64,000 nucleotides of DNA. Origin: Streptomyces chattanoogensis (GTDB lineage Bacteria; Actinomycetota; Actinomycetes; Streptomycetales; Streptomycetaceae). The stretch spans positions 1 to 64,000 of the forward strand of contig NZ_LGKG01000013.1 of the NCBI RefSeq assembly GCF_001294335.1, in the 5' to 3' direction. Below the pieces are notes generated by a model. That model was given only the letters and a program-made list of their open reading frames with translations, did no database searches and was not told the DNA's origin. Shown in pieces: positions 15,674 to 53,323 of the stretch. Position 1 is the stretch's first letter; the number at the start of each line of letters is the position of its first letter. The position numbers and the translations under genes were made by a program.

Positions 15674-16074
15674 GGGAGGGGTACCAGACGGTGTCGTGGC
15701 GGCAGTTGGCCGGCCGGGCGTCGAGGCCGCTGGTGATGTGGGGGGTGAAAGGGCCGGGTGGGCGGTGCGGGGGAGATCCCCCTCCGAACCGCCCCCGCAC
15801 GCCGATCGGCGGCCGCCGCGTGTGGGGGGCGCGGCGGTCGCCGATGTGAACTGCAACGCGTCGTGGGCTTGTGGCCTCTTCAGTGGTGCAGCATGTGGAC
15901 CACTCTGCCGGAGCGGACCACTCCATGGCATCGTTCGCAGGTCGCGGGATCACCCCCGCCGGTCGGCGGGGGTGCGGGGCCGTCTTGGGGCGGACCCCGG
16001 TGACAGGGCACGGAGCCGCGCAGCGCCGGGTGGTTCCGTGGGCCGGTATGGGTGCGGAGGAGAAAGGGGCGCCG
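15674..16074. other. intergenic region before the two-component system
   Basis: About 400 bp without a credible gene. A second large imperfect hairpin lies at about 15804-15845 (ATCGGCGGCCGCCGCG and its complement). The rest shows nothing I can name; a promoter for the response regulator must lie here. Confidence 0.4.
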
Positions 16075-18032: not shown

Positions 18033-18407
18033 TCAGGCCGACAGCGGGGCCGCCGCCTCGTCCACGGCCGTGTGCAGGTCCGGGTAGACCTCGAAGAGCC
18101 GGCGGACGCCGAGCGCCGCCAGGACGCGGTTGACGTGGGAGCCGTCGACGGCACCCTGTGCGGGGAGGATCAGCCGCAGCCGTCCCTGACAGGAACGCAT
18201 CAGTCTGCGGGCGGCGATCAGTACGCCGACGCCGCTGGAGTCGCAGAACCGGACCTCGGAGAGATCGAGCACCAGACTCCGCCGGCCGTCGGCCACCGCG
18301 TCGTGCACATGCTGGCGCACCGCGGGCGACGTGACCAGGTCCATCTCGCCGGAAACCTGCAGCACCGCCCAACGGCCCTGTTCGCCCTCTGCCACCTTCA
18401 ACGACAC
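18033..18407 (-). CDS. STAS-domain anti-sigma factor antagonist
   Basis: A 124-residue single STAS domain of the SpoIIAA/RsbV/BldG type. The phosphorylatable serine is in DSSGVG, residues 56-61, after VLDLSEVRF. Unphosphorylated forms bind an anti-sigma kinase and release its sigma factor. Codon 1 is GTG with GAAAGG at some distance. It converges with the sensor kinase and is divergent from the sigma factor locus. A functional link to that sigma factor is possible but not shown; no RsbW-type kinase gene is in the window. Confidence 0.88.
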   Translation of the reverse strand: MSLKVAEGEQGRWAVLQVSGEMDLVTSPAVRQHVHDAVADGRRSLVLDLSEVRFCDSSGVGVLIAARRLMRSCQGRLRLILPAQGAVDGSHVNRVLAALGVRRLFEVYPDLHTAVDEAAAPLSA

Positions 18408-18764
18408 GCGCTCGAAGCCTTTCGCTCGCTTTCGGACCGGATGCGCCCCGGATCTGTCCGGAACACACCCTTCCCCGGCTCGACTGCCCGGCCTCTCTCC
18501 CCTGAAACTCTTCCGAATCCTTGGCGCAACAGGCCGTTCTGCCCAAGGCTATGCCCAGTGGGCGGTGACTATTCCCCGATATCCGGTCACACACGGGTAA
18601 CACCTCGGCGGATACAGGGGAGATGTGGGCGCGAACGATGCGCATTACCCCCGTCAATCGATCACTTTCGATCCCCGTCGATCGGGGGACACCACCCCGT
18701 AGTGACAGCTCCCTTACCATCCGTATCCCCCTGAAGAACGTGGTTTGCGGCAAAGGAGCGTGCG
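18408..18764. other. divergent promoter region, STAS / sigma locus
   Basis: This 357-bp spacer contains an inverted repeat around GATCCCCGTCGATCGGGG (about 18669-18686) and, further down, GTGACA - 16 bp - TATCCC as a weak candidate promoter for the sORF-sigma transcript. No coding sequence is supported. Confidence 0.4.
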
Positions 18765-18845
18765 TTGTCAGACCCTCGCATTACATTCGATGCGTACGGC
18801 TTCGATGTGAACGGCGGCGTGACCGACGAGGCAACTGAGGTGTGA
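18765..18845 (+). CDS. 26-residue ORF translationally coupled to the sigma factor gene
   Basis: A TTG start at 18765 has an excellent AAAGGAG six bases upstream. The peptide, beginning MSDPRITFDAYGFDVNG and ending TDEATEV, is acidic and unlike random GC-rich translation. Its TGA overlaps the GTG start of the sigma factor in GTGA. It may be a real small protein, or a leader ORF whose translation opens the sigma-factor start. It is too short for confident assignment by itself. Confidence 0.55.
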   Translation: MSDPRITFDAYGFDVNGGVTDEATEV

Positions 18846-19603
18846 GCACAGCGACGACGGACAGGAATAGGGGTCCGATGGGAAACGACACACCCCCGCG
18901 CTGGGACAGGCGGATGCAGCAGCGGCTGGCCCGCGGCGAGGCGGCCGCGCTGGGCGAGCTCTACGACCGCTTCGCCTCCCTCGTGCACAGCCTCGCGCAC
19001 CGCGTCCTGGACGACGAGGACGCCGCCGACCGCATCACCCGCGAGGTCTTCGGCTACCTCTGGGAGAACCCGCAGTCCTACGACCCCAAACAGGGCTCGC
19101 TGCGCTCGTGGATCGCCGCGGTCACCCGCCATCAGGCCGTCCAGCGGCTGCGCCAGACCGAGGCCGCCTCGGCGCGGGACGGCGGTCCGCAGGCGCCCGC
19201 GCAGGCCGAGATGGAGCAGAAGATCCGCGAGGCCTCCACGGCTGCCCGCGCCGACTACATCGTCACCTCCATGCCCGCGCCGCTGCGCAAGGCGCTCGAG
19301 CTGGCGTACTTCCAGCGCCGGGACTACCGTCAGACCGCCGCCGACCTGGGCGTCACCGAGGACGAGGCCCGGCGGCGGCTCCGCCTGGGGCTGCAGCTGC
19401 TCTCCACCGCCCACAACCACCCGGCCCTGCCGCCCTCCGCGGCCCGGTCCTCCCATCTGCCCCGGACGGCGCCCGGCTCCCGTACGCCTTCCCACACATC
19501 CCAGCCGCCGCACAGACCCCACGGCCCGCGCCCACCCCATACGTCGCAGCCCGCCGGACCGGGCAACGCCCCGCCCGGCACGGGCCACGGACGGCCGCTG
19601 TGA
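18842..19603 (+). CDS. ECF-like RNA polymerase sigma factor
   Basis: A 253-residue sigma-70 family protein of the ECF class. Region 2 covers about residues 30-100 (LGELYDRFASLVHSLAHRVL, DAADRITREVFGYLW), and region 4 about 135-190 (PLRKALELAYFQRRDYRQTAADLGVTEDEARRRL). A Pro/His/Ser-rich tail of about 55 residues follows, unusual for ECF factors. The GTG at 18842 overlaps the upstream sORF stop. An ATG at 18878 with AGGAATAGGGG before it is an equally good start and would drop 12 residues. It overlaps the anti-sigma gene by GTGA, the classical sigma/anti-sigma arrangement. Confidence 0.85.
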   Translation: MSTATTDRNRGPMGNDTPPRWDRRMQQRLARGEAAALGELYDRFASLVHSLAHRVLDDEDAADRITREVFGYLWENPQSYDPKQGSLRSWIAAVTRHQAVQRLRQTEAASARDGGPQAPAQAEMEQKIREASTAARADYIVTSMPAPLRKALELAYFQRRDYRQTAADLGVTEDEARRRLRLGLQLLSTAHNHPALPPSAARSSHLPRTAPGSRTPSHTSQPPHRPHGPRPPHTSQPAGPGNAPPGTGHGRPL

Positions 19604-20934
19604 ACGGCCCCGACGAGTGGGAGGGCCCCGAACGGCCCGGCGGGCCAGGTGAACGGCCCCGGATACCGGCTCCGCGCGCCGCCGCCGAGGACCGCGGACC
19701 GCTGCCGGACCTCCGGCCCGCCCCCGAACCGGAAGCGAAACCCGAACCGGATTCCATGACGACCGACGCCACTGGCCCGGCCCCCGGGGAGACCCCGCCC
19801 GAGCCCTCGCACCCCGCCCCGGCCGCCCCGCCGCACAAGGTCCTCAAGTCGCTTCTCGGTGCCTGGGCGCTGGCCGCCTGCAGCGCCGAGGAGACCGCCG
19901 CCGTGGAGACGCATCTCACCGACTGCGCCTCCTGAGCGGACGAAGCGCTGCGGCTGCGCGACGCCGTCGGCCTGCTGCATCCCGCCGACAGCCTCGATCT
20001 CGACCCGCTGCTGCGCTCCCGCGTCCTGGAGGGCTGTCTGGGCCGCCGCCCGGCCCGTATCCCCGTGCCGGAGTGGGCGACGCCGTACGACGCGGAGACC
20101 GCGAAGCTCGATGCGCTGCTGCACGACATGGGCGAGTCGGAGTGGCGCGCTCCGGTGCGGCTGCGCTGGTTCGAGGACGAGCGGGCGGTGGAGCGCGAGA
20201 CCACCGTCGCCGGTGTCATCGGCCATCTGATGACCGTCGACGGCCTGGTGGCGACGGCGCTCGGCCTGCCCGATCCGCTGGGCGCCGACGCCCCGCCCGG
20301 CACCCCGGGGCCGACGCGCCGTACGGAGGCCTACTGGCGGGCGGCGGGCAAGGAGCCCGGCCGGCTCGCCACGCACCGGCCGTGGCGCGAACAGAGCTAT
20401 GCGCTGATAAGGACCGTCTCCTTCGCGGGCGGCGGCGCCGGCGAACTCCTCGTCCCCTACGGCAGCTTGCAGCTCCCGATGTGCGATTCCTTCCTGGACC
20501 GCGCCTTCGGGTGCTGGGTGCACGCCGGGGACATCGCGGACGCGGTGGACTACCCGTACGAGCCGCCGTCCGCCCGGCATGTCCACCAGCTGATCGACCT
20601 CGCCACCCGGCTGCTGCCCACCACCCTGGCCCACCGCCGCCGGGCCGGGCTCGCCTCACCGGCGCAGAAGCTGGTCGAGGCGGGCGCCCCGGGCCGCACC
20701 CTCCACCTGGAGGTCGAGGGCAGCGGCGGCGGGCACTGGTACATACCGCTGGACTCCCCGGCAGCCCTCGGCGCCAAGGAGCACACGGTCGCGCATATCG
20801 CGCTGGACAGCACGGAGTTCTGCCAGCTGGCCGCGGGCCATGTGTCCCCGGAGGAAGCCGCCGCGGGCCAGGACGGTGAGCGCGAGGCAATCCGCGATGT
20901 GCTGTTCGCGACCGCATCGCTGTCGCGGCTCTGA
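19600..20934 (+). pseudogene. zinc-finger anti-sigma / MDMPI-domain protein interrupted by an in-frame TGA
   Basis: One frame runs 444 codons from a GTG overlapping the sigma factor stop, but codon 112 (19933-19935) is TGA. The surrounding frame reads H-x3-C-A-S-stop-A-D-E. Anti-sigma zinc fingers have H-x3-C-x2-C, so the stop stands exactly where the second Cys (TGC or TGT) belongs. N-terminal part: a Pro-rich region, then the anti-sigma helix (KVLKSLLGAWALAACS). C-terminal part: a mycothiol-dependent maleylpyruvate isomerase-like (MDMPI/DinB) domain with GHLMTVDG, fully open to 20934 and restartable at a GTG at 20065. Options: recent nonsense mutation, sequencing error, two separate products, or recoding as selenocysteine; the last is unlikely because no clear SECIS hairpin follows. 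Confidence 0.75.
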
Positions 20935-40035: not shown

Positions 40036-40068
40036 GTGGGGCACACGAGAAGGGAGGTGGTTCGGCCA

Positions 40069-40107
40069 ATGATCAAGTACCGGACGCGTGAGGTGGCTGC
40101 GGGCTAG
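40069..40107 (+). CDS. 12-residue ORF with strong promoter and RBS
   Basis: ATG at 40069, TAG at 40105-40107, peptide MIKYRTREVAAG. The Shine-Dalgarno GGGAGGTGG (40052-40060) is one of the best in the window, and a good promoter stands upstream. A bulged hairpin (40144-40168) follows. No gene lies downstream on this strand for 1.3 kb, so it is not an ordinary leader ORF. It may be a micro-protein, or the transcript may be a small regulatory RNA. Confidence 0.45.
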   Translation: MIKYRTREVAAG

Positions 40108-40135
40108 CGGCCCGTCGCTTCACCGAAGTGCGGTG

Positions 40136-40174
40136 CCGGACCCGCGCACACCAGGAACGCTGGTGCGCAGCCGG
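40136..40174 (+). terminator. hairpin after the 12-residue ORF
   Basis: GCGCAC(AC)CAG pairs with CTGGTGCGC around GAACG, extended by GCCGG/CCGGC outside. It probably ends the short transcript. Confidence 0.5.
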
Positions 40175-40327
40175 CCCAATTCCCAGCAGTCACCCGACCC
40201 GCGGGCCGCCGGTTCGTCCGACCGGCCCTTCGCGCCACCGAGCGCGGAGGACACGGCCCGCGGGTCGTCTGCGTGCGCGCCCGGTCACGGGCAGCTGCCC
40301 GGTTACGGGGCGTACGCCGGCCGCGCC

Positions 40328-52280: not shown

Positions 52281-53086
52281 CGGGCACCGCCCTCGGCCCG
52301 CGGCCCCCGGCCCTTCCCCGGCGGCCCCGCGAAGGCCTGCGCAATGCCCAGCCACCGCTCCGCGTCCGCCCCGTGGGCCCGTACGCTCGGCAGATCGGCG
52401 CGATGCGCCCGCTGTGTCACCAGCAGACAGAACTCCAGAGCATCCCCGGTCACCCGCTGCGCCGCGTCCTGGGGGCCGTACGCCCAGACCGACCGCCCTC
52501 CCGGCGCCCGCAGCTCCACCCGGAACTCGTCGGCGGGCGGGGCAAGTTCATGAACCGCGAAGGCGAAGTTCCGGGTCCGTACCCCGATCCGGGCGATATG
52601 GCGCAGCCGGTCGGTGGGGATCCGCGTGACCCCCAGCGCATCGGCGATGTCCTGGCCGTGCGCCCAGGTCTCCATCAGCCGCGCGGTCGCCATCGACGCC
52701 ACGCTCATCGGCGGCCCGTACCAGGGCAGTTTCTCGCCCGCCGGCCACGCCGCGAGCGCCCGCCACAGCGTCTCGCGCCCGGTGCGCCAGTCCGCGAGCA
52801 GCTCCGCGGGCGGCGCCTGCGCCCCCTCCTGTGCCCCGTCGTCCACAAAGGTCAGCGGCGAGGCGAGGGCCTCCTGCACGGCCACCCGGGTGAAACGGTC
52901 CGGGTCGGTGGCGGCGAGCAGCGCCTGCCGGTCGGTCCAGGCCAGATGGGCGATCTGGTGGGCGAGGGTCCAGCCCTCGGCCGGGGTCGGCGTCGCCCAC
53001 CGCCCGGCCGGAAGCCCGGCGACGAGGGCGTCCAGCTCCTCGCTCTCGTCCCTGAGGTCGGCCAGTACGGCGCCGGGGTCGGACAC
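52277..53086 (-). CDS. TIGR03084-like DinB/MDMPI-fold protein
   Basis: A 269-residue protein of the mycothiol-dependent maleylpyruvate isomerase / DinB superfamily (TIGR03084 type). Metal-binding His residues are visible in [15 protein letters not shown] (about 39-53) and [15 protein letters not shown] (about 139-153). It is the first gene of the acyl-CoA operon. Its role there is unknown; the fold suggests a metal- and thiol-dependent step, or binding of a small acid. GTG at 53086 after AGGGGAG. Confidence 0.85.
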
Positions 53087-53323
53087 GCGACACTCCCCTC
53101 ATCACGCCAACTGCCGCTTGAGCAGGGCGCGTTGACATCGGCGTACGGATATACGGATGCGCGGCGGTACGGGTGGTCCTGGTGCGCTCCGAGCGTGGCA
53201 GCGACGGCAAAAACAATCAAGCATGCCTGCATGATTTTCTGGACGAGGGCGGCGCGGGCCCCGAGGCATCGGACACGGGTATCGGCGCACACCTCGCGCC
53301 GCCCGTTGCATTTCCCTTCACCA

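Follow-up and report, generated by a model that had tools for sequence, protein, structure and literature searches.

An in-frame TGA at a zinc-ligand codon of an anti-sigma factor gene in Streptomyces chattanoogensis looks like a strain-specific lesion or a sequencing error

The question raised by this locus is how an in-frame TGA should be read when it stands exactly where an anti-sigma factor is expected to carry a zinc-binding cysteine. In the window (the whole 64,000-nucleotide stretch of Streptomyces chattanoogensis contig NZ_LGKG01000013.1 that was analysed), a frame running from GTG 19600 to TGA 20932-20934 is interrupted by a TGA at 19933-19935, its codon 112, in the context H105-LTD-C109-AS-(TGA), and then stays open for 332 codons. 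The sequence-only reading had already placed this stop at the zinc-ligand Cys of an anti-sigma factor, with coordinates and codon counts that are right. The features of the locus are the following.

18842-19603, + strand: intact gene for an ECF-type sigma factor, 253 aa if counted from the first GTG (profile matches, ortholog)
19600-19935, + strand: anti-sigma factor, truncated to 111 aa when the standard code applies (GTGA shared by its start and the sigma stop)
19834-19836, + strand: H79, probable first zinc ligand (near-invariance in relatives; spacing H-x25-H-x3-C-x2-C)
19912-19914, + strand: H105, zinc ligand (invariance in relatives)
19924-19926, + strand: C109, zinc ligand (near-invariance in relatives)
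19933-19935, + strand: in-frame TGA, codon 112, at the fourth zinc ligand position (Cys, TGC or TGT in relatives)
19936-20934, + strand: rest of the frame, 332 codons, comprising the end of the anti-sigma domain and then a C-terminal domain (open frame)
20065-20067, + strand: first in-frame ATG, GTG or TTG past the TGA, a possible but unsupported restart (sequence inspection)
20089-20727, + strand: mycothiol-dependent maleylpyruvate isomerase/DinB-like domain, residues 164-376 (TIGR03083 below cut-off; PF11716 in relatives)

The sigma gene matches Sigma70_r2, Sigma70_r4_2 and TIGR02937 above their cut-offs and has an ortholog in S. natalensis (87%); judged by eye, ATG 18881 is perhaps a likelier start than the first GTG. 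Its stop is overlapped by the anti-sigma start through the sequence GTGA (19600-19603). The gene that follows is convergent and resembles a formyltransferase (Formyl_trans_N above cut-off, ACT just below), so that polar effects are not expected. Upstream of the sigma gene, at 18744-18790 of the window, the block TTTGCGGCAAAG ... TTACATTCGA is well conserved in 22 aligned relatives and is perhaps a promoter or operator, and a gene for a STAS-domain protein (18033-18407, - strand, 56.4 bits), divergent from the sigma gene, possibly belongs to the same regulatory set. Elsewhere in the window, positions 40043-40273 (+ strand) match the Rfam actinobacterial sRNA Ms_IGR-5 (85.3 bits; gathering score 45).

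Read through the TGA, the frame shows the ligand pattern H79-x25-H105-x3-C109-x2-C112, a zinc anti-sigma motif of the HHCC type, in which H79, 25 residues before H105, probably adds a further ligand to the H-x3-C-x2-C core, as its spacing suggests. The ZAS zinc motif H/C-x~25-H-x3-C-x2-C is thus present in the relatives and in the read-through frame, and the protein encoded under the standard code is without the fourth ligand, leaving the motif incomplete. The Pfam profile zf-HC2 matches the read-through frame with 26.5 bits (cut-off 22.2) and the 111-residue truncated product with 22.4 bits, barely above the same cut-off, while the NCBIfam 'anti-sigma factor' match of the read-through frame is far under its cut-off (37.1 of 100). 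The C-terminal domain did not reach the cut-off of the mycothiol-dependent maleylpyruvate isomerase family in either TIGR03083 (24.2 bits in the read-through frame and 29.8 with the part after the TGA alone, cut-off 50) or PF11716 (9.5 of 24.2 bits); many of the listed relatives carry a precomputed PF11716 assignment. A sequence search of solved structures gave four matches at E 0.45-0.83, none of them meaningful.

To compare codon 112 among relatives we used 147 proteins and 109 DNA loci (80 of them named), that is 256 rows of which 253 are distinct, one organism possibly occurring in both the protein and the DNA sets. The residue aligned with codon 112 is Cys in all 253 distinct relatives, in a set biased towards intact copies in that one of the six scan patterns demanded Cys at this codon (the other five did not) and the proteins predicted from genomes share such a bias. 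Among the loci read as DNA the codon is TGC in 93 of 109 and TGT in the other 16, and the aligned columns of all 109 loci are free of stops, in contrast to the window copy. The remaining ligands are conserved to a similar degree: H105 is His in all 252 distinct relatives with a residue there, C109 is Cys in 251 of 252, and H79 is His in 252 of 253, being invariant in a 51-sequence alignment. A search of 36 other genomes of the genus, which reads through stops, found a match in 35 of them (genome G032 being the one without), and the best match was free of stops in 35 of 35, three of these (G001, G008 and G010) falling short of codon 112; three weak and distant matches in the same scan do contain a TGA (E 1.5e-6 to 1.5e-4). 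The nearest protein among the matches listed, P0002, is annotated as Streptomyces chattanoogensis and has Cys at codon 112, with an identity to the window frame of 96% in the search and 98% over the aligned columns, and the nearest DNA, the S. natalensis locus L038 (89%), has TGC. The sequence-only reading had proposed to compare this codon in close relatives and had held that TGC or TGT there would make the stop an error or a strain-specific lesion, which is what the 109 loci and the nearest protein indicate.

The same reading had argued that the precise position of the stop makes it more than an ordinary broken gene, and this argument did not hold. Two of the 98 one-step nonsense changes possible in the frame hit the ligand Cys codons 109 and 112, a chance of about 2% once a nonsense change is taken to have broken the gene, with the mutation spectrum unweighted and codon 112 counted as a Cys codon. 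The position of the stop is mildly unusual, no more.

Other damaged zinc motifs were seen in the family. Locus L040 (S. sioyaensis DSM 40032) has Tyr in place of C109, the single exception at that position and another strain-specific loss of a ligand; three other S. sioyaensis proteins (P0008, P0010 and P0011) retain the Cys. In P0060, from Streptomyces sp. 769, an in-frame deletion of about 18 residues has removed H105 and C109; the remainder aligns well, the aligned 'Cys 112' being ambiguous owing to the gap. Recurrent selection against the zinc motif was considered and set aside, given that exceptions are not enriched in the ligand columns: the four of them hold two exceptions among 253 relatives (one each at H79 and C109, none at H105 and C112), or 0.5 per column, against 65 exceptions, or 0.53 per column, in the 122 columns of residues 79-444 with at most two exceptions, columns picked for having few exceptions, with the sp. 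769 deletion in neither count. A genuine stop allele under selection in nature or in culture, which keeps the sigma factor permanently on by removing its zinc anti-sigma partner, seems to us decidedly unlikely.

Readings in which the stop does not end the function of the gene have to be weighed against these data. A selenocysteine at the TGA, serving as a zinc or redox ligand, could chemically stand in for the Cys, and since S. incarnatus has been reported with selABCD and a selenocysteine-containing formate dehydrogenase (PMC4498112), the test was needed. SelA gave no match in the assembly (completeness 100), two of 14 controls, E. coli and M. jannaschii, being positive; SelB gave 10 matches, none above cut-off and the two best EF-Tu-like by eye, with two of 14 controls above cut-off. 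The tRNA-Sec model had four matches, and the only one above cut-off (47.6 of 47 bits) is a tRNA-Ser(TGA) according to ARAGORN, the next two being tRNA-Cys and tRNA-Gly; weak matches to this model are uninformative, as all 14 controls match it and five exceed the cut-off. For three stretches of RNA past the TGA, the predicted folding is no better than that of shuffled sequences (z 0.30, 0.79 and -0.08), which argues against a SECIS hairpin. With no SelA match, no SelB above cut-off and a tRNA-Ser as the one tRNA-Sec match above cut-off, the search for selA, selB and selC that the sequence-only reading had suggested turned up no recognisable selenocysteine machinery, and selenocysteine is effectively excluded in this assembly. 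It is also very unlikely that the locus now makes two working halves, a short anti-sigma stub and an isomerase-like protein restarted at GTG 20065. This codon sits just ahead of the C-terminal domain, and the part after the TGA has been constrained across species (dN/dS of 0.226 relative to S. natalensis), but that value is mostly a mirror of the time preceding the stop, the stub would be without the last ligand and the helices beyond it, and no Shine-Dalgarno sequence is visible by eye before the GTG. Furthermore, GTG stands at this position in 63 of 109 relatives (58%), against 49% of Val codons (1295 of 2654) in the same region, and is therefore not conserved as a start, so that the restart proposed from the sequence was rejected as a conserved internal start. 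Low-level read-through yielding some full-length anti-sigma factor is favoured by the intact downstream frame but is more improbable still, because a stop at this place occurs in no relative that was read and there is consequently no sign of a selected read-through site. Of the four options of the sequence-only reading, the nonsense lesion and the sequencing error stand, selenocysteine fails, and the restart is unsupported.

The choice between these two rests on the quality of the assembly and on the age of the stop. With a probability of about 0.72, we consider that this is a recent nonsense mutation, private to the strain or its immediate lineage, which cuts short the anti-sigma factor paired with an ECF sigma factor. 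A sequencing or assembly error, with the gene intact in the living strain, is considerably less probable, yet it has several points in its favour, namely that the assembly is a draft of 217 contigs, that the relatives read intact at codon 112, and that the part past the stop has not decayed. Using P0003 as the outgroup, the window branch shows after codon 112 one change (residue 280) and one ambiguous change (residue 251), and the S. chattanoogensis branch shows three (residues 148, 197 and 429). The lack of decay means that the stop is either very young or not real and, as expected, fits a very young lesion and an error equally well. Single-base errors are uncommon in draft consensus sequences, which counts against an error. 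Moreover, two large protein families of this assembly show few in-frame stops inside conserved domains, with none in 150 ABC-transporter matches (150 of 290 candidates scored) and one in 148 MFS matches (140 of 195 candidates scored, some genes in two pieces), or 1 in 298, a figure that bounds the substitution error rate only loosely. An assembly ridden with errors is unsupported given this rarity, which still leaves room for one wrong base. The one MFS transporter match with a stop, a single TGA, lies near a contig end (G000:C142:956-1570).

Elsewhere in the window, no other convincing lesion was found among the 34 window-matching S. natalensis ORFs (of 52 taken automatically), a comparison with no built-in positive control because the S. 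natalensis anti-sigma gene is absent from the automatic ORF sets; inspected directly, the aligned part of that gene (L038) is free of stops. A candidate second frameshift near 16007-16057 was discarded, as it is positioned upstream of the start of a response regulator, and so were two further stops, in the sigma gene and in the gene at 52283-53224, which fall in 5' extensions of S. natalensis ORFs, by eye before the likely starts.

The recent nonsense mutation that we favour would affect a well-known kind of gene. Like the ZAS factors RsrA of S. coelicolor, RsiW of B. subtilis and ChrR of R. sphaeroides, the gene overlaps an ECF sigma gene and encodes an H-x3-C-x2-C zinc motif plus another ligand some 25 residues before it, the HHCC form being that of ChrR and the CHCC form that of RsrA and RsiW (PMC5358783). 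The window frame lies beside an ECF sigma gene, as ZAS genes do, and the DNA fetched for the 80 named relative loci contained a sigma homolog in 79 cases. Unlike RsrA, RsiW and ChrR, the window protein has a C-terminal maleylpyruvate isomerase-like domain, and its fourth ligand codon is a stop. The full-length architecture is shared with Streptomyces proteins described as 'zf-HC2 / maleylpyruvate isomerase N-terminal domain', a family of at least 2592 proteins at E <= 0.001 among 7993 scored candidates (120 of them listed), from which, as far as the 109 relatives read as DNA are concerned, the window copy differs in having a stop. Our paper searches found no functional study of this ECF system. 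Its sigma factor may be the ortholog of SCO4409, and the excerpts of papers naming SCO4409 list a sigma factor without a function.

What the stop would do to the sigma factor can be judged from SigW/RsiW. According to the structural study (PMC5358783), the zinc ligands of RsiW are C3, H30, C34 and C37, of which C37 lies in helix 3', and helix 3', the linker and helix 4' fit the groove of the sigma factor; the zinc-free oxidised form of RsiW still binds its sigma factor, so that zinc loss alone brings no release. Motif alignment with RsiW would place the stop inside helix 3' or at its beginning. The AlphaFold model of the read-through protein (helices 79-90, 96-108, 110-124 and 137-146) is in line with this placement at low confidence, the model being poor (mean pLDDT 51). 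A private nonsense mutation would thus truncate the anti-sigma factor at the fourth ligand of the HHCC motif, and the 111-residue product could neither complete the zinc site nor supply the helices that would grip the sigma factor. Given these findings on RsiW, the argument depends on the truncation more than on the ligand: the product should lose its hold on the sigma factor chiefly through its missing helices, and less through the one missing ligand. Family and gene order suggest that the product of the frame inhibits the adjoining sigma factor which, if the stop is real, is probably unrestrained. The sigma gene being intact, its regulon may be constitutively active: the factor would be made without its inhibitor, and its regulon would be switched on as far as other controls allow. 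The isomerase-like domain at the C-terminus would not be made, or only at trace level.

Taken as a whole, the evidence points to a gene of a well-known kind that is broken in this strain in an ordinary way, or to a single sequencing error, and not to a new reading of the code. It carries a caution, since a stop at the exact codon of a ligand resembles recoding, but the relatives and the search for selenocysteine machinery indicate an error or a lesion private to the strain. Should the lesion prove real, this strain would be a ready-made anti-sigma loss mutant of the ECF system, whose regulon a comparison with a close intact strain could reveal.
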